26,183 nt of DNA from a virus. The notes beneath the pieces are model-generated. The model saw nothing but the letters and a program-made list of their open reading frames with translations. It did not search any database and was not told where the DNA came from. Location of the stretch: positions 1 to 26,183 of IMG/VR virus record IMGVR_UViG_3300017753_000082; one strand, written 5' to 3'. Below, piece by piece: positions 1-24,270 of this stretch (position 1 is its first letter; each line of letters starts with the position of its first letter). The position numbers and the translations under genes are program-made.

Positions 1-863
1 ATTTTTGCTCTTAATCCACCTGAACCAAATGATACTTTTTTAATTCGTTTGGTTTTGGGATCTCTTACGTAAACGTAATATGCTTTTGAACCACCGCGTT
101 TTGGTTTACCTAATGGTGGATCTTTTTTCTTTTTCTTTGCTTTAGCTTCAAACATTCTTTGATTTGTATCAGCAAATAAAACATATCCATTTCTTCCAAA
201 CATTTTAGTTAGTTCAGTATCTAAACCATCTATATCGCGTTCATTGTCTTCATCATATTGGACAGGAAATCTTGGATCTATATCACTTGGGTAACCAACT
301 TTAACATTAAATCCTTTATCTTTAAGTTTATTTTTGATTTTGATTAAATCTATAAACTTATATTCTTCATTGATAAAAGGAATATCTAAAGCAACATTTT
401 TACCCTCAAATAACCCATATTCACCTACATCAGTACGTTTAATTAAATCTCTATCAAGCTCATTTAATTTTAAAGCACCTTCATTAAATAATTCTCTTGC
501 TTCAGCAAAAAATTCAACATACGCATCTGAACCAATTCTGAAAACGCACTCTGATAATGGTTTTTTATGTGTTTGATGAAATTCTAAACCAGGAGAGGCA
601 TTTACGCCTTCTTGTAGCATAATGCCTTCTGATGTTGGTGCAATTTCTTTTTCTTGAAATGGAGCTATATCTTTAAAGTTAAAAGATTTAGTTGTACCTG
701 TTGTTTCTAATTCTACAGTATAAAAAGGATGCTCTGCCATTGTAACAGTAGCGGTATCACCCTCTACAGTAGTTACTTTATCACCTACAGAAAATTTCGC
801 TGAAACGCCTGCAACATTTTCTATAGCTTCTCGGATTAAATATCTGAGTTTGAGCTGATCCAT
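1..863 (-). CDS. Conserved phage protein with CTS-like N-terminus, SH3-like domain and basic tail (partial, runs off left edge)
   Basis: The frame is open from an ATG at 863 to the window edge (287 codons visible, C-terminus missing). Residues 1-13 (MDQLKLRYLIREA) form a short helix ending in LIRE, like the starts of several neighbours. Residues about 22-68 look like a small SH3/KOW-type beta barrel opening with VGDKV. LQE/G at 83-86 is a possible second processing site. A middle segment (about 95-165) contains DVGEYGLFEGKNVALDIP, which resembles a type of hypothetical protein I recall from T4-like phages. A Lys-rich linker (240-260) leads into a segment with YYVYVRDPKTKRIKKVSFG, which I recall as a recurring C-terminal element in marine phage proteins. 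Function is unknown. The start lies 6 nt after the stop of the Cys-rich peptide gene, so the two are probably on one transcript. Being in the virion is an inference from the N-terminus only. Confidence 0.85.
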   Translation of the reverse strand, partial: MDQLKLRYLIREAIENVAGVSAKFSVGDKVTTVEGDTATVTMAEHPFYTVELETTGTTKSFNFKDIAPFQEKEIAPTSEGIMLQEGVNASPGLEFHQTHKKPLSECVFRIGSDAYVEFFAEARELFNEGALKLNELDRDLIKRTDVGEYGLFEGKNVALDIPFINEEYKFIDLIKIKNKLKDKGFNVKVGYPSDIDPRFPVQYDEDNERDIDGLDTELTKMFGRNGYVLFADTNQRMFEAKAKKKKKDPPLGKPKRGGSKAYYVYVRDPKTKRIKKVSFGSGGLRAK

Positions 864-931: not shown

Positions 932-1564
932 TTACTTATCTTCTTTTTCGTCTTTTTTATCATCTTTTTCGTCTTCTTTTTTAGATTTTTTAGATGATTT
1001 TTTTTCAAAGCGTAAACCTTCTTTTTCTAATGCCTCACGTAATTTATCCATTTGCATTTCTAGCATAGATAATTTTTCCATTAAACCATTAGATTCAGAT
1101 GTAAGGGCTTCACGCATGTCTGGATTAGAAGTTGCTTCAGACATTTTACCTTCGATTTGTTTTTTAATTTCGTCAATTGAAGTTTCCATTGTCTTAAGTT
1201 TATCTTGACCTTTTTTATAGGTTTCCTTAAGTTTAATGTCTCTTTCTTTAATCATTTTATTTGCTGCTGATTTTGCTTTACCTTCAGATTTATAAATACC
1301 TGAAATGTCTTCACGAGTTAAACCACTCATAGCAAATTCAAATACGTCTCCACTTTTTATTAGTTCTTCAACAGAAGATTCTTTAGTGGGTTTTGTAACG
1401 TAATAAAATTCAGCGATTTGGTCTTCGATTTTTGCTACTTTTTCTTTTACAGGTACTTTTTCTGTATAAGCCATATCACCACTGTCGGCTTCTGTAGTAG
1501 CTCGTTCAGATAACCAGTCAGTAATATTTTCTTTGATAAGTTTTTTAAGTTCTGTGCGTTTCAT
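932..1564 (-). CDS. Coiled-coil, Lys/Glu-rich protein with CTS-like N-terminus
   Basis: A 210-aa protein starting at ATG 1564. It opens with MKRTELKKLIKEN, a short amphipathic helix ending LIKE at residue 12, shared in pattern with other proteins here. Residues about 95-180 are rich in Lys, Glu, Leu and Met with heptad-like spacing (for example SNGLMEKLSMLEMQMDKLRE) and should form a coiled coil. The last 25 residues are almost only Lys, Asp, Glu and Ser. The family is not recognised. Size, charge and coiled coil would suit a scaffold, internal core or DNA-associated protein, but no specific family motif is visible. A 37-nt spacer with a promoter-like ATATTTAT lies before it, so it may begin its own transcript. 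The next two downstream genes follow within 2 and 6 nt. Confidence 0.85.
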   Translation of the reverse strand: MKRTELKKLIKENITDWLSERATTEADSGDMAYTEKVPVKEKVAKIEDQIAEFYYVTKPTKESSVEELIKSGDVFEFAMSGLTREDISGIYKSEGKAKSAANKMIKERDIKLKETYKKGQDKLKTMETSIDEIKKQIEGKMSEATSNPDMREALTSESNGLMEKLSMLEMQMDKLREALEKEGLRFEKKSSKKSKKEDEKDDKKDEKEDK

Positions 1565-1601: not shown

Positions 1602-2174
1602 TTATAATTCTAACTCTTTTAATTGTTTAATATTTTCTTTTAATGTTTTAATTACTTCAGGGTTTATCTTAGCTTTTGACCAATTTTCTATATCTCCTGC
1701 TTCAGACATAAAATTGTCACCTTTATCATCTAAAAAAGCATCTACAGCCTGTTCATAATCCATAACAAATGAATTTTTATTAGCATTCATTAATTTAGAT
1801 GCATATTCTTTATACCCACCTGTAGCTTTTAAATGTGTTTCGTGTTCTATTACACAGTTAAAACATTTACCATGAATAGTCCACATTTTTTTGTTTAATT
1901 TAGTGGGTTTCATGGGCTTATTACAACCACATTTTAAAGGAAACTTAACCATTTCCCTTAATTTATCATGTTTAGTAATAGTTTGTTTTAAACTATTTTT
2001 AATAGTCCAGGTTTTACCATTTTCCTCCCATATATCCCCCTCACTATATTCTTTCTTTTGTTGTTCAAAACCAGTTTGAACCCTAGTACGGTCCGCTGTG
2101 TTTCCCGAAACTATATTTCTCATTCGCTTAATATCGCGTTCAGAAAATTCTTTATTTAAACGTGATTTACTCAT
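1602..2174 (-). CDS. Conserved T4-like phage hypothetical with zinc-finger-like cysteines
   Basis: A 190-aa soluble protein. The N-terminal stretch FSERDIKRMRNIVSG (residues 10-24) followed by T-x-V-Q-T-G-F resembles a conserved hypothetical of marine T4-like phages that I recall only as unnamed. A cysteine cluster at about 82-107 (CGC, then KCFNC) probably binds one zinc ion, with His or Cys ligands such as those in WTIHGKCFNCVIEHETH. The C-terminal third is helical and charged. It overlaps the upstream HAD gene by 4 nt (ATGA) and so is probably translationally coupled to it. No enzymatic motif is visible. Unlike its neighbours it lacks the LI-x-E N-terminal helix. Function is unknown; a nucleic-acid-binding or assembly role is only a guess. 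Confidence 0.85.
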   Translation of the reverse strand: MSKSRLNKEFSERDIKRMRNIVSGNTADRTRVQTGFEQQKKEYSEGDIWEENGKTWTIKNSLKQTITKHDKLREMVKFPLKCGCNKPMKPTKLNKKMWTIHGKCFNCVIEHETHLKATGGYKEYASKLMNANKNSFVMDYEQAVDAFLDDKGDNFMSEAGDIENWSKAKINPEVIKTLKENIKQLKELEL

Positions 2175-2722
2175 AAACCTAATTTAGATAACTCGTTTGT
2201 AACTTGTTCTGTTGATTTATATAAAATTCCAATTCCTCCTGCAGCTTTCCAAGCAGCAATGTTATCTGATCTATCATCTATTAATATTTTATTTGGTCCT
2301 GCATATTTTGCTTTGCCAGATGCTTTAAAACCAAATTTATATGGTGTACCAGACATATTTCTTTTAATCCATACACCTTTTCCTATACGAGATGATTCTT
2401 CTCTAGAAGGTGAAGTTAAAATAGTTGGTTTATATTTTTTAAGGTATTTGTATAATTTTTCTCCTTCAGGCATCCATGGCATTCCTGCCCAAAAACGAAC
2501 TCCAATTTGTTTATCTATAAGATCCCAAAATTGTTCGTTTGCTTTATCTTTTCCAAATTGAATAGTCTTTTGATCTATATATTCATCTGGTGTAACACCA
2601 GCAAACTGTTCAAAACGTCTTTCAAAGTCAGTTAAGACACCATCCATGTCAACGAAGACTTCATATGCTTTTGCAAGATCTTCTTGCAATAAATCCATTA
2701 AACTTCCTTTTATTCTATTCAT
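2171..2722 (-). CDS. HAD-superfamily phosphatase, 5'-nucleotidase-like
   Basis: HAD hydrolase motifs are clear (numbered from the ATG at 2722). Motif I is VDMDGVLTD at about residues 24-32, with both nucleophile and acid-base Asp. Motif II is the Thr-Ser of ILTSPSR (about 103). A conserved Lys follows (WIKRN, about 120), and motif IV is LIDDRSDN (about 148-155). Size and motif spacing fit the 5'(3')-deoxyribonucleotidase-like branch, which removes phosphate from nucleotides, although substrate cannot be read from sequence. Start choice: the longest frame begins with TTG at 2746, but ATG at 2722 gives an 8-nt overlap with the upstream stop, as in two other gene pairs here, and yields a MNRIKGSLMDLLQE start resembling the neighbouring CTS-like helices. 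A third option is ATG at 2698, which has a chance or real AAGGA before it. Confidence 0.85.
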   Translation of the reverse strand: MNRIKGSLMDLLQEDLAKAYEVFVDMDGVLTDFERRFEQFAGVTPDEYIDQKTIQFGKDKANEQFWDLIDKQIGVRFWAGMPWMPEGEKLYKYLKKYKPTILTSPSREESSRIGKGVWIKRNMSGTPYKFGFKASGKAKYAGPNKILIDDRSDNIAAWKAAGGIGILYKSTEQVTNELSKLGL

Positions 2723-4106
2723 ATATGTGTGGATTTTCACGTCCAAATTTTCTCATTATAACTGCTGCTAATGAATTAGCTTCATTTTCATCTGGTGATC
2801 CATCTTCACCTGAAGTTGGTGTTAACCTATCATCTAGATTTTGCATATGGTGAACCATCTCGTGTGCTACAGTTCTTAATATATCAGCCATATTACGATT
2901 ATGAACTACAACCATTATTTTTTCTTCTGAAGGTAGGTATCCTCCAAAACTATGATATTCCTGAGTGTAATCAGGGGAGTTTATTAGTTTAATTTTGGGT
3001 TTATTTATAGAAAGATATTCGCTAACATAATTTACAAAATCTCCTATTACTTTACCTTTTGAACTATCCCAACCTTCATTTAGGAATTTTTTATATCTAG
3101 CTTCTTGTAGATATCTGTCTTCTTTTTTCATACGTTGAGTTTTTCTTTTAGAAGCCTCTTTACGTTGTTTAATATATTTAAAAGCAGATTTTAATTTAGC
3201 TTTTTTTAATGGATCTTTAGTTCTACCTAAAGCTGCTCTTACTCTTTGATGTATTAAATTTATTACCTGAGATTTTCTAGCATGGGATTTATTTTTAAAA
3301 GTAGTTTTATTTAATGTATCTACTATATCCTGTCTAGTACTAAATTTTATTTTTACTGTATCACTAGGATCTTCATCAGTATATAATCTACGTCCTGATC
3401 CTTTAGGTTTTTTACCTGTACCTTTTTTAGGTTCAGCTTCATTTAAAGGAGTATTATCATGTCCACATTTATGACAGATGTATAAATCATCTCCACCATC
3501 TACTATTTTCCATTCCCACCCACAATTATCGCATACAATTTTATCGCCTACTATAGCTTCGTTTAATTGAAATATAGACATAAAATCATCTACATTAATA
3601 CCATCAGGTATAAATTCAGATATAGTTTCTAAATCGTTATCGCGTATTGCTTTACGTAAATCAGTGGCTGAATATGTACCTTCCATTCCAGCATCAAATA
3701 CCTCTACATGGGGATATTTTTCTTTATCTAATAGTGATTGGAAGCGTTCTTGTTCTCCTTTACCAAATACCGCTCTTATATCATGAGATGGATTATCCTT
3801 AGCATAATCATATACTGCTTTAACAGGTACAGGTGTTTGAATAATTTCTACTTTTTCAAGTTCTGGGTTATTTTGTTTATATAAATCCCAAACTTGTTGA
3901 GCTTCTTCTACAGAAACACCATCACGTTCTTTAGTAGACATAAAGATAATAACACGATCTGTTTTATCATCTATAGCTTTTAAAGCTGTAGCAACATGTC
4001 CTTTATGTGGTGGTTTAAATGCACCAGGATATAAAGATACCTTTTCAGTAAATTGCTCTACTAATAGACTTTTTGCTATTTGATTACCTATTCTTTCGGG
4101 ATTCAT
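2715..4106 (-). CDS. Nucleotidyltransferase / zinc ribbon / zinc metallopeptidase-like fusion with prohead-protease-like sites
   Basis: A 463-aa multidomain protein. Residues about 20-170 are a cytidylyltransferase-like (NMN/pantetheine-phosphate adenylyltransferase) Rossmann domain, with YPGAFKPPHKGH (HxGH at 34-37) and the second nucleotide-binding motif YSATDLRKAI (145-154). Residues 192-214 are a zinc ribbon (CxxC...CxxC). Residues about 245-330 are very basic and helical. Residues about 350-463 hold a zincin-like domain with HEMVH (415-419) and a downstream ENEAN whose Glu could be the third zinc ligand. L-(N/Q)-E followed by A or G occurs at 181-184, 221-224, 333-336 and 342-345, at or near the domain borders. 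The N-terminus contains SLLVEQ (13-18). The start overlaps the kinase gene stop by 4 nt (ATGA). The enzymatic substrate is unknown; NAD+ or coenzyme metabolism is plausible for the first domain. Confidence 0.85.
   Translation of the reverse strand: MNPERIGNQIAKSLLVEQFTEKVSLYPGAFKPPHKGHVATALKAIDDKTDRVIIFMSTKERDGVSVEEAQQVWDLYKQNNPELEKVEIIQTPVPVKAVYDYAKDNPSHDIRAVFGKGEQERFQSLLDKEKYPHVEVFDAGMEGTYSATDLRKAIRDNDLETISEFIPDGINVDDFMSIFQLNEAIVGDKIVCDNCGWEWKIVDGGDDLYICHKCGHDNTPLNEAEPKKGTGKKPKGSGRRLYTDEDPSDTVKIKFSTRQDIVDTLNKTTFKNKSHARKSQVINLIHQRVRAALGRTKDPLKKAKLKSAFKYIKQRKEASKRKTQRMKKEDRYLQEARYKKFLNEGWDSSKGKVIGDFVNYVSEYLSINKPKIKLINSPDYTQEYHSFGGYLPSEEKIMVVVHNRNMADILRTVAHEMVHHMQNLDDRLTPTSGEDGSPDENEANSLAAVIMRKFGRENPHIYE
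3075..3565 (-). other. Cluster of candidate prohead-protease cleavage sites between domains of the 463-aa protein
   Basis: Residues 181-345 of the fusion protein contain four L-(N/Q)-E/(A or G) sites: LNE/A (183/184), LNE/A (223/224), LQE/A (335/336) and LNE/G (344/345). They follow the transferase domain, follow the zinc ribbon, and precede the zincin domain (two close together). The T4 gp21 prohead protease prefers (L/I)-x-E before the cut, often followed by Ala or Gly. The positions are read directly; cleavage is inference. Confidence 0.4.
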
Positions 4107-4903
4107 GCGAAAAATGAGTTTACTCGAGATTTAGCTTCATCTTTAGAAACTGAATTCGCCTTAATGTCTTCTACTTTATCTGAACTTACAAAATCGTTTA
4201 TTTGTTTTTCTAATTCAGCTTTAGATTTTTCAGAACGTGCCTTTTCTTTATCTGTTTTAGGCTTAGTATCAGTTGGAGCATAAGGTGTAAGGTATTTATC
4301 TACTAAATCCTTTAAAGGTTTCATAGATCCTCCTTTTTCTAATGCTTTATCGTTTACAACAGATACAAAATTGCTTCCAAATTCATCTTTGTATAAATCG
4401 TAATTTTGTGTAATGTTATTCCATGTACGTAATACAATAGCAGGTGCTAAACTTCTATCTTTCCCACCTGAACGGTCAAATCGTGTATCATTTCGTTCTA
4501 GTGCTTTTTCTAGTGAAGCAAATACATATACCATCAAGACATCGTATCCTAAATCTTCTAATTCCTTCTTTAATTTTAAAGTAGGACCAGAAGAAGCAGC
4601 AGGACCATCCAAGATAAAATTCTTTTTACCTAAGATAATTTCACGTGTCATTGGGCGAAATTCCTTATTAGCTGCAGCCATTGCTTTAGCTGCCTTGCTT
4701 CTATCTTCAGCATTAGCATTTTTTAAATCTAAAGATACATTTAAATCTTTTAGATTGCGCATATATGCATCGTCTACATTTAAGATTAAAGCATCTTTTA
4801 CATTTTCTATAAATGAAGATTTACCAGCTCCAGGAGAACCAGCGAGGATAAGTGCCTTTGGATTAGCGGATTGTTCTAAAATTATATCTCGTAGTTTATA
4901 CAT
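4103..4903 (-). CDS. P-loop kinase, zeta-toxin / polynucleotide-kinase-like
   Basis: A 266-aa protein. Walker A is AGSPGAGKSS (residues 21-30), preceded by a hydrophobic strand (KALIL). LNVDD (about 41-45) supplies the acidic residues expected after the first strand of the zeta-toxin/P-loop kinase fold. FILDGPAAS (about 96-104) is a later core strand, and ERNDTRFDRSGGKDR (about 134-148) looks like the Arg-rich lid that clamps the phosphate donor. Zeta toxins phosphorylate UDP-N-acetylglucosamine; related phage kinases act on polynucleotides, and the substrate here is unknown. No antitoxin-like partner is adjacent. The first residues (MYKLRDIILEQ) form a CTS-like helix ending in ILE at residue 10. 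The C-terminal 60 residues are a charged Lys/Glu/Ser tail. A 51-nt spacer with a promoter-like element lies upstream, so this may be the first gene of the region 4 operon. Confidence 0.85.
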   Translation of the reverse strand: MYKLRDIILEQSANPKALILAGSPGAGKSSFIENVKDALILNVDDAYMRNLKDLNVSLDLKNANAEDRSKAAKAMAAANKEFRPMTREIILGKKNFILDGPAASSGPTLKLKKELEDLGYDVLMVYVFASLEKALERNDTRFDRSGGKDRSLAPAIVLRTWNNITQNYDLYKDEFGSNFVSVVNDKALEKGGSMKPLKDLVDKYLTPYAPTDTKPKTDKEKARSEKSKAELEKQINDFVSSDKVEDIKANSVSKDEAKSRVNSFFA

Positions 4904-6853: not shown

Positions 6854-7273
6854 TTAAATGTTTGGGTTGACCAAGTCTTTTCTAAAAAACTTTCCTAAGA
6901 TATTATCGTTTATATATTCTGTATTTTCAAGTACATTATTACAGAATTGATATTTTGTTTCTAGATATGTAAGGTGTTTTTTGTTAAATGCAAATTCTAA
7001 TACTTCACGTGTAAAATCTTCTTGTTTACCTTCTGATAGTAATTGTTTGATCTTAGTGTGTGAACCATAATAAGTTTGCCAGTCACTTTCTTTAACTACT
7101 TTACGTTTACGTTTAGCACCTTTTAAAGGTGGTAAAGTACGATTAAAAAATAGTACCTTTTTACCTAAATATTTTTCTTTAGTTGGAATAAAAGTAGCTT
7201 CATAAATAAAACCAAATGTATTTTCGGGCATCTCTTCGATGCTCCCTATAACCTCTCCTTTATATAACCACAT
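6854..7273 (-). CDS. GIY-YIG-like putative nuclease
   Basis: A 139-aa protein. GFIYEAT (21-27) and KYLGKK (34-39) match the paired GIY and YIG strands. ESDWQTYYGS (62-71), an Arg at 89 in FTREVLEF, and Glu105 in YLETKYQF follow in the order expected for the helix residues and the metal-binding Glu. T4-like phages carry many such proteins, including Seg homing endonucleases and uncharacterised short relatives. A basic loop (KGAKRKRKVVK, 51-61) fits DNA binding. No separate DNA-recognition domain is present, so it is probably a compact nuclease and not a full homing enzyme. It follows the 101-aa structural gene by 9 nt. Confidence 0.75.
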   Translation of the reverse strand: MWLYKGEVIGSIEEMPENTFGFIYEATFIPTKEKYLGKKVLFFNRTLPPLKGAKRKRKVVKESDWQTYYGSHTKIKQLLSEGKQEDFTREVLEFAFNKKHLTYLETKYQFCNNVLENTEYINDNILGKFFRKDLVNPNI

Positions 7274-7282
7274 ATTGTGTTT

Positions 7283-7588
7283 TTATTGATCGTACCTTAT
7301 AATAAAAGTAGTATCAGTATTACTAGACATTGGGATAGGTTGTCCAAATTTACCTACCATTAATAATTCATTTGCTTCATTATATAATCCTATAGTAGTA
7401 GCATAAGCTCTAAATTCAGATCCAGTGGCAAAATCACGTAATGAACCAGAAGTATCAGTTGTTAATGTTGGATTATGTGATACATTAAATTCATTATCTG
7501 AAATTTTACAAATAATTTCTTTTTCAAAAACACGATATTCGTTTCTGAAAGATATTTTATTAGGTCCTACTTGTGCTTGGTGTGCCAT
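7283..7588 (-). CDS. Small tail-associated protein, paralogue of the C-terminus of the 346-aa structural protein
   Basis: A 101-aa beta-rich protein. From about residue 18 to the end it aligns with residues 262-346 of the 346-aa protein encoded at 12967-14007. CKISDNEFNVSHNPTL pairs with VRVRNSDFNYSTNPSM, and TTIGLYNEANELLMVGK pairs with TTVGLYNDANELLSVAK. It is therefore a stand-alone copy of that C-terminal module. The context, directly after the two fibre genes and before the replication genes, suggests a virion tail or fibre attachment part. There is no signal peptide or transmembrane segment. The upstream sequence is A/T-rich without a Shine-Dalgarno motif. The exact function is unknown. 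Confidence 0.85.
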   Translation of the reverse strand: MAHQAQVGPNKISFRNEYRVFEKEIICKISDNEFNVSHNPTLTTDTSGSLRDFATGSEFRAYATTIGLYNEANELLMVGKFGQPIPMSSNTDTTFIIRYDQ

Positions 7589-7598
7589 AATTTATATT

Positions 7599-9317
7599 TT
7601 AACAAGGAGTTGATGATGATAAAATTAAACCATCTGATAAGAGTAAAAACTCATCAGATTCATTTTTATAATAATATCCTCCATCTCCTACAGTATTATA
7701 AGCTAAAGGCCCATCAAAATCATAATAAATAGACCCATCACCACCCTGATAATACGTACTAAAAGTATCATCTCCACATGCTACTGCTAGAGTTTCAGGG
7801 TTAATTAATTCTGGAGTGTCAAATGGGTAAGATGAACTTGGGTAACCATATATACTTAATTGGGTTGTTTCTAATTCTGTTCCACAAGTTTCAAATCCTA
7901 CTATATTTCCTGCACTTAAAATAACATTAGTACCACCTTGTGAATTATTATTGATTGGAAATCTACCAGATAAATTTCTTCCATCTCCTCTTAATTGGTT
8001 ATCTTTATAAAAAATAGTTTGAGATCCACCTATAAATTTAACTCTTTTACATGCTTCTTCTTGTGTAGTAAAAGAACCATCTTGTGTAAATATATCTAAA
8101 GAAGGTAGAATACATGTTTCTAATTTTTGTATAAATCCATTTTTATTAACTACTAAATAAGTGTTAGGAGTAATTAATATATAATTAGTATTAAAGGGAA
8201 ATGTAGGACGTGTTTTTGATTCAGCGTCTTCTCTATTAGTATAAAGATAACTTCCTAGTTGAAAATAAGTTATTTCTGTAGGGTTTACTTTACTATCAGA
8301 ACAAGCCGCATCTTGTGAAATTAAAGGAGTAGAACCAAACCTAATAGTAGGGGTTATAGTTCCATCCATTATATTTGAGGATCCTGTAGCTATAGGAGAA
8401 ACTTGTAATAATGAAAAAGTAGTTGTAGTAGACTCTCCTGTAGGTGGAAAATCTAATTGTCTTATAGTAAAATTAATTCCAGTATCTGGGGGGAAGGTAT
8501 CACTACTATCAACATTTAATAAAGGATTATTAAATCCAGACCCAGTAGTATAAGTAAGTGTTTCTAAACCTATAGTTCTTCTTTGAATAAAGTTTCCAAA
8601 AGTATTTTTTGCACCACCTTTTATAGTTACATTTACATCAGGTGATTTTCCAACTGAGTTCCAAGATCCTGTAAGATTAGAGTTACTATAAGTATAATTA
8701 TAAGTATTTAATGCTGAAATTTTATGATTACTATTTCCTCTTTGACTTCTTATTTGAATCTCCATTGGAGAAGATAAATTATTAAGAAATTGAATATTAA
8801 CGTCTCCTTTAATTTCTTCAGGAGGTATTTCATCATAAGTAAAAGATAATAAATCAGAATTAAAAGATCTATCAGGACTAATTCCACTACAAGAAGTAAA
8901 AGCTCTAAAAAATACAGTACCACTTACATATGAAGAAGTAATAGGAACTAAAGATCCTATAGATGCTGTAAATAATTCAAATGAATTAAAATTATTGGTT
9001 TGACTTATTGAAGCTGAAATTTTAGTAGGGCTATTATTTGAATCTTGGGTAGTATAATTTAAATTAAAATATCCTCTTTGTGATCCAGTATATATCCCTG
9101 TTAATACTGGGGGTTTACATTCATTAATATCTTCTACACAATCAATAGGGCTAAAACTTCTATTAAAATAAGTTTCTTCATCTAAAGACGCAGATAAAGA
9201 AGAAGTTGATAAAGTCACAACAGAATTTGTAGAACCACTAGCTACACTTCCAGAAGGTTGTCCATTATTAAAAGATTGGACTACAGTTTCTATTATTTTA
9301 TATCCTGTCTTAGCCAT
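7599..9317 (-). CDS. Tail fibre / fibre-tip-like protein with tandem Cys-bounded modules
   Basis: A 572-aa protein, Ser/Thr/Asn-rich and almost entirely beta-strand-like. Residues 1-60 are low-complexity and may attach it to the fibre. Residues 100-330 look like Ig/fibronectin-type beta sandwiches. Three C-terminal modules of about 57-65 residues each begin with an AC dipeptide and end at a Cys (339-402, 423-478, 514-572). This pattern resembles repeats I recall from Bacteroidetes phage and surface proteins. The protein ends at the final Cys. The start overlaps the 1217-aa gene stop by 8 nt (ATGGCTAA), so both products are likely made together. Receptor binding is inferred from position and composition. 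No enzymatic motif is visible. Confidence 0.75.
   Translation of the reverse strand: MAKTGYKIIETVVQSFNNGQPSGSVASGSTNSVVTLSTSSLSASLDEETYFNRSFSPIDCVEDINECKPPVLTGIYTGSQRGYFNLNYTTQDSNNSPTKISASISQTNNFNSFELFTASIGSLVPITSSYVSGTVFFRAFTSCSGISPDRSFNSDLLSFTYDEIPPEEIKGDVNIQFLNNLSSPMEIQIRSQRGNSNHKISALNTYNYTYSNSNLTGSWNSVGKSPDVNVTIKGGAKNTFGNFIQRRTIGLETLTYTTGSGFNNPLLNVDSSDTFPPDTGINFTIRQLDFPPTGESTTTTFSLLQVSPIATGSSNIMDGTITPTIRFGSTPLISQDAACSDSKVNPTEITYFQLGSYLYTNREDAESKTRPTFPFNTNYILITPNTYLVVNKNGFIQKLETCILPSLDIFTQDGSFTTQEEACKRVKFIGGSQTIFYKDNQLRGDGRNLSGRFPINNNSQGGTNVILSAGNIVGFETCGTELETTQLSIYGYPSSSYPFDTPELINPETLAVACGDDTFSTYYQGGDGSIYYDFDGPLAYNTVGDGGYYYKNESDEFLLLSDGLILSSSTPC
7602..8309 (-). repeat. Three tandem Cys-bounded protein modules (coding repeat)
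   Basis: Residues 337-572 of the 572-aa protein. Each module begins AC, runs through a central Gly/Tyr-rich segment (for example YLYTNRED, IFYKDNQLRG, IYYDFDGPLAY), continues with a hydrophobic strand, and closes with a Cys (LETC, FETC, STPC). The pattern is visible at protein level only. The DNA is not a direct repeat, which suggests an old duplication. Confidence 0.55.
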
Positions 9318-12300
9318 AAATTACGTTATCTATAAAATATTTTCCTAAAGCTATTGATCTATTATCTAAATCAGCTTGAATTGAACTACTATCAAATACA
9401 TTAATTTGCCCACCCATACCACTATGATTTACACAGTAATAATATAAAGTATCTGGGGCATCTGACGGTAAAGTCATGGTTAATAACCCATCTGTACCCG
9501 CTGTACCAGAATAAACTACTCCGTTGTTAGATCCAGTGTATTCTGTCCCCCCATTATGAGTACCATCTTCTGTAGTAGATAATCTTATAGGATGACCACT
9601 AGTAGTACCTGATGATTGGCCTAAGGTTGAAAGTATTCCTCTTCTTAATGTAAGGGTTGGTTGTAAAACACTATCAATATAATATCTATTTCCAGCTCCA
9701 GGATTTATTACAGTTACAGCATAAGAACCACTTGCAAATGCTGGGGATATATTAGGTGATGTAAATAAATAATAAATTCTATTAACATCTTGTATATTTT
9801 CTAATTTTCTAGAGAATATTTCTCCTCCTCCTAAACCAGAAGGTAATGGCATGTTTGCATTTTCATCTTCAGGTATAATCATAGTATACATGAGATCATT
9901 TACCATTTGTTGTGACCCAGCATAAATTGTATAGTCTTTATAAGTATAAGGATCTAAGTTAGTTCTAGGACTTAAAGGATCAGAATCAAAAAAACTAGCA
10001 CTAGTATAAGAATAAGCTTCTAAAAATCCTATATTATCTATATCAGCTGCTAATAACCAAACTTTATCTGTACGTTGAGTAAAATAATAAGCATTTTCTG
10101 TACCAAAATAACTTGCAGAAATTGATCCACTAAATATTTTCCCATTAGTATATTCTACATTAGACCCAGATATTGTATTTATAATATTTCCAAAAGAATA
10201 ATTAGCTCTAAATAAATCAGAATTAGGCCCTATAAAACTACCAGTATTACCATAAATTATATCTGTAAATTCATTATTACGAGCTATAAAGTTAGATCCA
10301 CTACCATCACTTCCTGTAGTAGCTAAAATAGCAGCACTACCTGTAAAATTATCTCTAATTTTAGAAAGTTGAAATTGATTGTCAAATTTAAAATTAATAT
10401 TGGTATTTTCTACTGCAGCATTTACTTTTGATGCTGTTAAATGTAAAGTTGGAGTTTTATATCCTAACCCAAAAGCTAAAGATGTATCTAAGTTAGAAGC
10501 ATAATCATCCATTCTTAAACTACCAGTTATAATAACAGAATTACTAACTTCATTACCAGTTATAATAGCAGGACTTCCACTAATATCACTTGAACCACTA
10601 AATTCTCTTCTTAAAGAAAAAGCACTTGATGACCCCGTTGAAACATCAATATATAATGTATCGTTTGTATTCCATGTATAACTACCTGTTGCACTACCAG
10701 AAGTAGCAAATTGTACAGGAGTTTCACTTCCTGAACGTACTAATACTTTTACCCAGTTAGAACCCGTAGTTTGATAAAAATTAAGTTTTCTAGTAGTTGG
10801 GGTATTGCTACCAGTACTATTTTCACAAAAAGATTGACTAATTTCCCAAGTTCTAGAATAATATTCTAAACTTGAAGTTGTACCTATAAAGGAAGAAGAT
10901 ATTGATGTTGATGTAAAATAATTAAGTATAGAAGCTGAAACGAGGGTACAATTAGAATTATCTTCAATAAAAATGCTAGCTGATCCAGAAGTTAAACCTT
11001 CGGGGCCTAATTCTATACTTATATTTCCCCCAAAAGAAGAAGTTAAAAGGTAATTAGTATCAGATGTCGAAGCTGTAATATTATAAGGTGGAGTACCTCC
11101 CACTAAATTTTTAATTTCTATAGAACTACTTAAAGAACTACTATAATCAATGGAGGCCGTATAAGTTAGTATAGATGGTGATAATAAATCAAAACTAAAA
11201 CTTGATGTAGCTCCGTCTGCATCAAATATTTCTAGTGTATAACTACCTGAAAAAGCATTAAGAGCATCAATTGAATTTGTTGTATATCCCGTTGATCCTG
11301 ACCAACTCCATGTTAATGGTAACCTTCCACCTTGAATAGGTTCATTCCTTTTTTGGATAAAGCTCCCATCAGACCCACTAAAGCATAAATCATTTGTAAT
11401 AGTATAACTAGCAGTTACAGGTTGTATTTTACCTACAACTATAGATGAAGTATCTGTACACCCATTACTATCTTTAAAAAATACAGAATATGTTCCTTCT
11501 GTTAATGCTGAAAATGTAAGTGGGGTTTCTATAGATTGAGAAAATGATGATGATAATGAAGCAGATATTACTCCTGGAGCACCACTTGCGCTTACTATAA
11601 TTCTACCATCATTAGTATCATTACTAGATACTGCACTTGCATAAATCTTTCTATCTATAGAAGGTAAAGATGTGTTTATTGATTGAGTATAAATTGATTC
11701 TTGAGCATCTTTTACACTTAATATTAAAGATCTAGTAGGAAGGATTGATGCTGATATTATGGGTTGAAATAAATCATTAGATGATGTAGTTAAAGAGGTA
11801 TAATCAGAAAAACCATCTACATTTAAAGAATAGCTATAAGGTGGAATACCTTGATCAATAGAAAATGTTAATGATGCTGATGTAATACTTCCAAACCAGG
11901 ATTCAGTTACACTTGATACACTAGAAGATAGGGGTAATGTTGTTAATTCTAAAAATACAGAAGAGGTATTACTTGGTAAACCTAAAGTATTGTCTACCGC
12001 ATAATTTATTTGATAACTACCAGGAATAGATCCTGATTTATTAGGGGTAATTACTAATTCTCCAAATTGATTTATAGTTGTATCTGGGAAAGAATAATTT
12101 GGATCAGGAATTATTTTAACTGAAGATGTATCTATTCCAGAACAATCATCAAAATCATTACTTAAAATAGGTAAGGTTTTTACTCGTTGAGTATTTAAAA
12201 TTTTGAAATAATCATTTCGAGCTACAGGGTTAGTAGAAGCAAAACATAAATAATCAATATTTGTTATTACTGCTATACCATGAGAATAAAATATGTTTCC

Positions 12301-23382: not shown

Positions 23383-23788
23383 TGTTTATATTTATTTGAA
23401 GTTCATCTTCAATATTAGTATTAGCTAAAGAATAATTTAAAGCTATTATAGTAGTATTACTTTGTTGTTCTAATTGTACAGTTAAATTATTTACAATAAC
23501 GTTTGGAAAAAATGTATCAATTCCATTTATAATTAAGTTTTCAACCTCTTCTACTAAATTTTCAGTTAAAGGGTTAAAAATTACATCTCGTAACCCTGAT
23601 CCAAACCCAGGATTCATTATTCTTTCTCGTTTACCTGTTAAAAGAAAATTAAGTAAATTAGATTTAATTGCATCTTGAGTAGTATAAGTTGTATTAATAC
23701 CAGTAGCTCCATTAAAAGGAATACTAATACCTACTCCTACACTAGGTTGCAAGTCTAAAATATCAACGTTACGTGTTATATATGCCAT
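23369..23788 (-). CDS. 25: Baseplate wedge protein gp25-like
   Basis: A 139-aa protein, near T4 gp25 (132 aa). The family signature is at residues 47-75: NFLLTGKRERIMNPGFGSGL followed by RDVIFNPLTENL. It corresponds to the G-E-R-x-x-x-P-x-F-G-x-x-L-x-x-x-x-F pattern of gp25 and its relatives in contractile injection systems. In those systems the protein anchors sheath assembly to the wedge. It is called lysozyme-like by Pfam but has no lysozyme activity. It overlaps the gp6 gene by 14 nt and shares a TAATG junction with the upstream gene. Together with gp6 it firmly marks a contractile tail. Confidence 0.93.
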   Translation of the reverse strand: MAYITRNVDILDLQPSVGVGISIPFNGATGINTTYTTQDAIKSNLLNFLLTGKRERIMNPGFGSGLRDVIFNPLTENLVEEVENLIINGIDTFFPNVIVNNLTVQLEQQSNTTIIALNYSLANTNIEDELQININNGGV

Positions 23789-24270
23789 TATATTTTACCG
23801 TCTTGTTTCATTTTACCCATTAATCCAGAAAAATCAGGAACAGCATCAATTGATACTTGATTTATATCTGATGTTTTAGGTTGTGAGGCTACCATTTCAT
23901 CTACAGAATTAACTGTTTTAGTTTCACCTCCAGGCATTCCGCCTTGGAAACCAACAGCGTTTTGTGCTGTCATAGTTCCTCCATTCATATCTCTCCATCC
24001 ACCTTCAACATGTGTTTGATTTAGGATATCAGATATAGCACCTGCTCCTTCAAATAAAGGTTGAGTTGGTTGTGGGGGTTGTTGTGGAGTAGTAGGTTGT
24101 ACTGTCTCTGTTAATTCAGATAGTGATTTTCTTGGTGTTTTTTGTTCTACAACCGGCTTCTGAATTATTTTAGTTTCGGTAATAGGAGTACTCATAATTA
24201 AAGAAAGTTCTTCCTTAATTACGTCTCTTACCTCTTCTCGAATGATTTTTCTAAAAGCTTCTATTTTCAT
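23788..24270 (-). CDS. Pro/Gln/Gly-rich protein with CTS-like N-terminus, 160 aa
   Basis: The protein begins MKIEAFRKIIREEVRDVIKEEL, a strongly amphipathic helix ending its first half with IIRE at residue 12, like the N-termini of several region 4 proteins. Residues 55-72 are a Pro/Gln/Thr linker, followed by PLFE/GAGA (71-78), another candidate gp21-type site. The rest is Gly/Met/Asn-rich and probably flexible, ending VPDFSGLMGKMKQDGKI. There is no recognised domain. It sits directly before gp25 with a TAATG junction, so it may be a baseplate or hub assembly part. The N-terminal helix alternatively suggests a capsid-directed or chaperone-like protein. A short AT-rich spacer precedes it. The function is unknown. 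Confidence 0.8.
   Translation of the reverse strand: MKIEAFRKIIREEVRDVIKEELSLIMSTPITETKIIQKPVVEQKTPRKSLSELTETVQPTTPQQPPQPTQPLFEGAGAISDILNQTHVEGGWRDMNGGTMTAQNAVGFQGGMPGGETKTVNSVDEMVASQPKTSDINQVSIDAVPDFSGLMGKMKQDGKI

Follow-up and report, generated by a model that had tools for sequence, protein, structure and literature searches.

A mosaic phage protein with prohead protease-type sites at its module joints, probably a head-packaged polyprotein

A 26,183-base fragment of an uncultured virus (the window) encodes a 463-amino-acid protein that joins several unlike domains in one chain, and the question raised by this locus is whether the chain is later separated into its parts. Polyproteins cut by the assembly protease are, to our knowledge, not usually expected of tailed phages, and our literature search found no report of a prohead protease cutting a phage chain of several enzymes. 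A sequence-only reading of the window had proposed such processing, with the prohead protease releasing separate enzymes inside the capsid; the span that it singled out (positions 3075 to 3565) runs from E344 to about residue 181. This polyprotein interpretation is the best supported reading of the locus. Judging from sequence comparisons, the 463-aa protein is probably a multi-enzyme polyprotein that a T4-like phage packages in its head and cuts with its prohead protease.

The minus-strand gene run at the left end of the window (Table 1) matches a 166-kb relative, G001 (the record of locus L006), gene for gene, with identities of 96% for the primase, 94% for the PD-(D/E)XK protein, 85% for the kinase, and 90% for the nucleotidase. 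T4-like head genes and an S77 prohead protease are present in both G001 and the cultured Flavobacterium phage immuto. The protease gene is absent from the 26-kb window fragment and present in the syntenic G001. A scan of genome assemblies retrieved three related loci, all in MAGs, which appear phage-like. Because two of the three MAGs are named Flavobacteriales, the host of the window virus is probably a flavobacterium as well. In the ORF list, the nucleotidase begins at a TTG codon; since its homologue in G001 starts at MNRIKGSLMDLLQE, the true start in the window is probably the ATG at about 2722.

Table 1. The 463-aa protein, its modules and candidate cleavage sites, and neighboring genes (window coordinates; a slash marks the candidate cut)
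Feature	Position	Strand	Basis
463-aa mosaic polyprotein ORF (putative)	2715..4106	-	ORF; relatives with shuffled modules
N-terminal extension, residues 1-21, capsid-targeting-like helix, LVE/Q at 15-18	4044..4106	-	Family comparison; pLDDT < 50 at 16-18
Nucleotidylyltransferase (NMNAT/CoaD-like) module, residues 22-180	3567..4043	-	PHROG 395; Foldseek NadD/CoaD matches
Site 1, LNE/A, residues 181-184	3555..3566	-	Motif, codons; low-confidence segment 181-186
Cys4 zinc ribbon module, residues 187-219	3450..3548	-	Two CxxC pairs; recurrent module
Site 2, LNE/A, residues 221-224	3435..3446	-	Motif, codons; segment 220-252 pLDDT < 50
K-rich module, residues 225-329	3120..3434	-	Recurrent, [LI]xE ahead in many contexts
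Site 3, LQE/A, residues 333-336	3099..3110	-	[LI]xE/A kept in 10/10 aligned relatives
Site 4, LNE/G, residues 342-345	3072..3083	-	[LI]xE/[AGS] kept in 9/10 aligned relatives
Zincin-like metallopeptidase module with HEMVH, residues 346-463	2718..3071	-	Motif; weak DUF3920 and PHROG 87 matches; stand-alone homologue in Synechococcus phage B23
Zeta-toxin/P-loop kinase-like neighbor, N-terminus MYKLRDIILE/Q	4103..4903	-	PF06414, 2.9e-13
5'-Nucleotidase-like neighbor, N-terminal LLQE/D	2171..2746	-	PHROG 2643, 1.8e-26
287-aa neighbor, cut by window end; IRE/A at 12 and two internal sites	3..863	-	Homologous to C-terminus of Melnitz NTase fusion
210-aa coiled-coil neighbor, N-terminal IKE/N	932..1564	-	Sequence

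The first module carries the HxGH motif of the NMNAT/cytidylyltransferase superfamily as HKGH at residues 34 to 37. It matched PHROG 395 in a profile search (E = 8e-6), and its best Foldseek match was NaMN adenylyltransferase (E = 4e-6), with a fold like those of the NaMN and pantetheine-phosphate adenylyltransferases; the score for Pfam PF01467 fell below the cutoff. The Cys4 ribbon and the HExxH zincin were assigned from their motifs and weak profile matches. The K-rich module, which we take to be DUF5872-like, gave no match to DUF5872 in a Pfam search of the window protein.

The motif [LI]xE/[AG] occurs exactly four times in the 463 residues, with the glutamates at 183, 223, 335, and 344 (codons TTAAACGAAGCT, TTAAATGAAGCT, CTACAAGAAGCT, and CTAAATGAAGGT, respectively), just as the sequence-only reading had listed them. 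That reading had also placed the sites at or near linkers. In an AlphaFold2 model built from 11 sequences (mean pLDDT, 66.7), all four lie in predicted disordered linkers, namely, segments 181 to 186, 220 to 252, and 329 to 348, where pLDDT is below 50. Such residues make up 107 of the 463, and the probability of finding four of four sites among them by chance is about 0.003. The N-terminal LVE/Q at residue 17 falls in a further segment of this kind (16 to 18). Additional [LI]xE sites had been claimed at the N-termini of neighboring proteins; these were present (ILE/Q in the kinase, LQE/D in the nucleotidase, IKE/N in the 210-aa protein, and IRE/A in the 287-aa protein), but P1' is mostly Q, D, or N rather than A or G. 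The PLFE/GAGA reported for a 160-aa protein encoded beside baseplate genes (window 23788 to 24270) was confirmed; it is kept in G001 and was not seen in immuto_156. The 160-aa protein also has an N-terminal IIREEVRDVIKEE helix.

Relatives were collected by BLAST of ORFs from 79 related loci. The same modules recur among them in differing order and number, making the family a mosaic. Close relatives measure 319 (NTase-zincin), 359, 463, 583, 639, and 864 aa, and more distant ones reach 1,392 aa, with up to seven recognized modules in one gene. Thirteen module models delimited 39 junction types in 48 relatives, which is the shuffled multidomain architecture of polyvalent-type proteins. The hallmark effector domains of that type were represented by HExxH in the window protein and by Tox-ART-HYD1 in L076 and Polbeta in L064, the latter two below the curated cutoff; ADP-ribosyltransferase-like, Pol-beta-like, and other domains are added in relatives. 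The polyproteins of L029 (9992 to 11515) and L076 (8551 to 11025) contain a module beginning LYHYTS, and it is this module that gave the Tox-ART-HYD1 match in L076. In immuto (L080), the gene at 7170 to 9893 is annotated as NadR and actually encodes a 907-aa chain, with the NTase starting near residues 280 to 290 behind another domain and TLAE/A. Sites of the [LI]xE/[AG] type in gp182 of immuto include ELAE/G, TLAE/A, and RLPE/G. Mosaicism extends to neighboring genes of the cluster, such as window 3 to 863 and its homologues in other loci, whose seams likewise carry sites. In L048 and L117, the polyprotein includes a fused 5'-nucleotidase-like domain, and the C-terminal domain of the Melnitz fusion is homologous to the 287-aa neighbor in the window (E = 1e-12). 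Separate cargo genes and joined modules therefore appear to interchange.

Conservation of the sites in homologues with linkers of variable length had been suggested as a check on the polyprotein interpretation, and its outcome was favorable. Site 335 was kept in all 10 aligned relatives, and site 344 retained A, G, or S at P1' in 9 of 10, the exception being V in L001. Sites 183 and 223 track their modules and disappear when the module behind each is missing: LNE/A precedes the ribbon in all four relatives in which the ribbon directly follows the NTase (L001, L002, L006, and L007), and a site precedes the K-rich module in all four relatives having that module (L001, L002, where it lies at the ribbon end, L003, and L009). 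Across the wider family, the K-rich module is preceded by PLNE, EIINE, RRLTE, AINE, DALEE, KPINE, and others and the GRYD zincin by LYE, LTE, INE, LNE, or LKE, and behind the ribbon comes LxE, with sequences of at least seven kinds after it. Codons vary at identical site peptides. The strict motif was found in only 62 of 118 module junctions; upstream of HAD (0/9), DUF6934-like (0/12), and SH3-like (0/5) modules, it did not occur. The 56 junctions without it may mean that some modules remain linked or that cleavage is less strict than [LI] at P3; contexts in the held-out set described below include V or M at P3 with E/G.

Placement of the sites was evaluated in two ways. In the border test, the ends of BLAST matches were taken as module borders in 49 non-redundant proteins, and protein ends were excluded. 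Within 6 aa of a border lay 67 of 114 [LI]xE[AGS] sites, compared with 16.7 expected, a count not reached in any of 10,000 circular shifts of the sites. When K, D, Q, N, or R was substituted for E, the resulting decoy motifs occurred at borders 4, 7, 1, 7, and 0 times, versus 16.6, 9.6, 6.8, 7.6, and 7.1 expected (0.0 to 0.92 times expectation). A control of 274 other ORFs was also enriched (51/196 versus 15.5 expected). This enrichment was found in cargo-cluster neighbors (30/115 versus 9.9) and in unplaced proteins (21/57 versus 4.5), several of which have capsid-targeting-like N-termini. Tail proteins gave 0/22, but with just 1.0 expected, they are a weak negative control.

The second test compared positions inside and outside modules, with K, D, Q, and N decoys pooled and the window protein excluded. 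In 48 non-redundant relatives, 5 of 116 sites were inside modules and 111 outside, compared with 190 and 121 for the decoys. A strict redundancy cut to 13 proteins gave 1 inside and 32 outside (decoys, 52 and 49), and harder cuts gave 0 and 19 for seven proteins and 2 and 13 for four. For a held-out set, the module models were frozen, two fresh scans were run with other modules, and six loci on already-used contigs were dropped; the resulting 118 loci yielded 122 module-bearing proteins, of which 92 were non-redundant and unlike the first set. Here, 10 sites were inside and 195 outside (decoys, 330 and 208), with 4 and 77 in a strict subset of 30 proteins (decoys, 105 and 97). Three MAG proteins gave 1 and 9 (decoys, 10 and 11). 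The P values for the full sets (5e-30 and 9e-51) treat related sequences as independent; those for the strict subsets (8e-8 and 1e-15) are fairer. When inside and outside were instead assigned by BLAST coverage, the polyproteins showed no bias (34 inside and 68 outside; decoys, 91 and 179; P = 0.52), probably because the matches run through the joints.

Inside modules, the motif density was 0.27 to 0.30 per 1,000 aa, compared with 1.55 and 3.54 in the conserved parts of tail and other proteins, respectively, from the same loci; thus, avoidance of the motif is not general. The sequence-only reading had called the placement of the sites, at or near linkers and never inside the catalytic motifs, unlikely if random. 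Placement is indeed what sets the sites apart, and not abundance, as the overall density of [LI]xE[AGS] in the family (3.42 per 1,000 aa) hardly exceeded that in other ORFs of the same loci (3.25). A raised overall density was accordingly discarded as evidence.

The chain also begins like T4 head cargo. The window protein has a short N-terminal propeptide ending in LVE at residues 15 to 17, with Q at P1'. N-terminal [LI]xE was present in 27 of the 30 family members listed as extended, the remaining 3 actually being without an extension; 10 family members start right at the NTase. Cyanophage proteins annotated as cytidyltransferases start with MKNFHQFITE/A, MKSFFQFLSE/A, MRFRQFIIE/A, MKKFSAFLTE/A, LTFLTE/A, or MKSYKEFLSE/A, and the Melnitz NTase fusion starts with MKKFSEIIE/A. 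Taken together, 7 of 9 cyanophage and Melnitz homologues have a start peptide ending in [LI]xE/A, S-PM2 and Syn1 being without one. The window NTase is distant from these enzymes: a direct BLASTP comparison with the Melnitz protein gave an E value of 0.32, and the link is through the PHROG profile. Among the seven, the virion data consulted here cover only S-SZBM1, whose cytidylyltransferase (362 aa as read here, with N-terminal FIIE) is the sole enzyme found in the virion proteome, as far as the available text of PMC9146016 indicates. NMNAT-like proteins have been reported from S-CBWM1, S-SCSM1, and S-CREM2 virions, with a caution about carry-over by the authors in the text available.

Among stand-alone relatives of single modules, the B23 zincin starts with MNYKQFLRE/S, resembling the internal ARYKKFLNE/GW, and the S-SRM01 zincin and the K-rich proteins of Mosig and HTVC033P have no site. 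S-SRM01 and Mosig do have S77 though their stand-alone proteins lack the site; HTVC033P has no S77, as expected. Within G001, a genome-wide census of N-termini showed a mild excess of the motif (47/196 versus 0.16 internally; decoy K, 50/196). In the cargo cluster, which was picked post hoc, the count was 11/13 compared with 36/183 elsewhere (Fisher P = 3e-6), and the K decoy was also raised there (7/13, P = 0.02; [LI]xK[AGS], 6.3 per 1,000 aa). A separate N-terminal feature is RMQKLAG[IL], found in 10 distinct ORFs and always beginning in the first 24 residues (L027 6724, L029 15324, L031 3057, L034 14352, L048 5671, L049 13486, L075 11632 and 11958, L076 14483, and L080 11714). The same residues end the G001 scaffold protein (119754 to 120917), with nearly identical tails in immuto and three further relatives. 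RMQKLAG[IL] may be a capsid-targeting tag that mimics the scaffold tail.

In the first set, S77 protease was found in 7 of 15 records; those in which it was not found were one complete genome (HTVC033P) and seven contigs, possibly fragments. In the second set, it was found in all 10 cultured phages (cyano-, pelagi-, and methylophages). According to the available text of PMC9026906, gp21 of T4 cuts after L/I-x-E, and T4 internal proteins enter the head by means of a short N-terminal sequence that is removed by such a cut. In G001 and immuto, the capsid protein carries LLE/GIS, the scaffold several sites including IAE/A, and the protease itself ITE/G or LTE/S at its N-terminus and LNE/S or LNE/G at its C-terminus, the last resembling the joints of the window protein.

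Other explanations of the joints were weighed against cleavage by the prohead protease. The sites could be chance matches, or recombination seams without a role, as would suit a short motif of ordinary overall density. The decoy-controlled placement tests, the independent held-out set, and the variable codons at identical peptides all disfavor this explanation, which we regard as very improbable. Processing of a polyvalent effector by its own zincin domain is distinctly unlikely. The window protein ends in an HExxH zincin, the domain found most often in polyvalent proteins, and autoprocessing of such proteins has been proposed in the portions of PMC5512222 available. Seed searches detected no zincin in 16 of the 49 family members; of the 33 sites in these 16, 14 were still at module borders, alongside 53 of 81 in zincin-containing members. 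Moreover, S77 itself and its likely substrates carry the very site found at the joints, and the same N-terminal site occurs in cyanophage NTases with no zincin in the chain.

A further explanation treats the motifs as fossils, that is, capsid-targeting peptides of once-separate head proteins left as inert, uncut linkers after fusion. The resemblance between the start of the B23 zincin and an internal joint would fit such an origin, as would neighbors such as the 5'-nucleotidase that occur both alone with an N-terminal site and fused. We consider inert linkers unlikely, as the modules themselves almost lack the motif, suggesting exposure of the entire chain to the protease, and the sites are retained in divergent contexts with varied codons.

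If the prohead protease does cut this polyprotein, the N-terminal helix ending near LVE17 would target it to the prohead core, like the capsid-targeting sequences of T4 internal proteins. At head maturation, S77 would cleave each linker at its [LI]-x-E/[A/G/S] site, behind the glutamate, so that the four modules (nucleotidylyltransferase, zinc ribbon, K-rich, and zincin) would become individual proteins in the capsid and be injected along with the DNA. The released set would comprise a nucleotidylyltransferase of the NAD type and a metallopeptidase, together with a ribbon and a basic module that may bind nucleic acid, and could then act in the host. Phage NAD synthesis has been proposed as a counter to NAD-depleting defenses (PMC9503650, in the text available). 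With a site of its own on every module, the chain could gain, lose, or reorder modules and still be processed. We give roughly even chances to a broader cassette system of aquatic T4-like phages, in which site-bounded modules are shuffled into head-targeted polyproteins and neighboring mosaic genes, enter by N-terminal tags (including RMQKLAGI), and exit as separate enzymes.

Polyprotein processing, if correct, would join polyvalent effectors, T4 capsid targeting, and the NMNAT-like enzymes of cyanophage virions in one mechanism, account for unlike enzymes ending up in the head, and supply a sequence rule for spotting injected proteins in uncultured aquatic phages. Under the cassette system, the proteins that these phages inject could be predicted from the pattern of sites alone.

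Each of the known systems shares part of this arrangement; further literature background comes from the available portions of PMC10665884, PMC9602691, and PMC3037559. Polyvalent proteins (Iyer et al. 2017, PMC5512222), which have been compared with RNA-virus polyproteins, also combine many unrelated effector domains per chain, mosaicism, common zincins, and likely delivery with DNA. Their processing is ascribed, in the text available, to embedded peptidases, whereas here the joints are T4-type prohead protease sites, in zincin-free members too. T4 internal proteins and Alt (PMC9026906) share the short N-terminal helix ending in [LI]xE, the S77 protease found in relatives, and the role of presumed injected head cargo, but the available description is of one end-trimmed protein per gene rather than of several modules per gene with internal sites. 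The virion NTases of cyanophages S-SZBM1, S-SCSM1, S-CREM2, and S-CBWM1, reported as identified by mass spectrometry in CsCl-purified virions, belong to the same superfamily, in which 7 of 9 homologues have a capsid-targeting-like N-terminus; they are mostly an NTase with a short tail, whereas the window protein is a long chain with distant NTase similarity. In phiKZ-like giant phages, head ejection proteins are likewise cut at many sites, after glutamate, in the prohead by a gp21-like protease, but the cuts described in the available sections of PMC9026906 remove propeptides and are not said to free enzyme modules from one chain. Compared with these systems, the 463-aa protein would work like a viral polyprotein and, by kind, appears to be a variant of polyvalent head-packaged effectors processed by the assembly protease.
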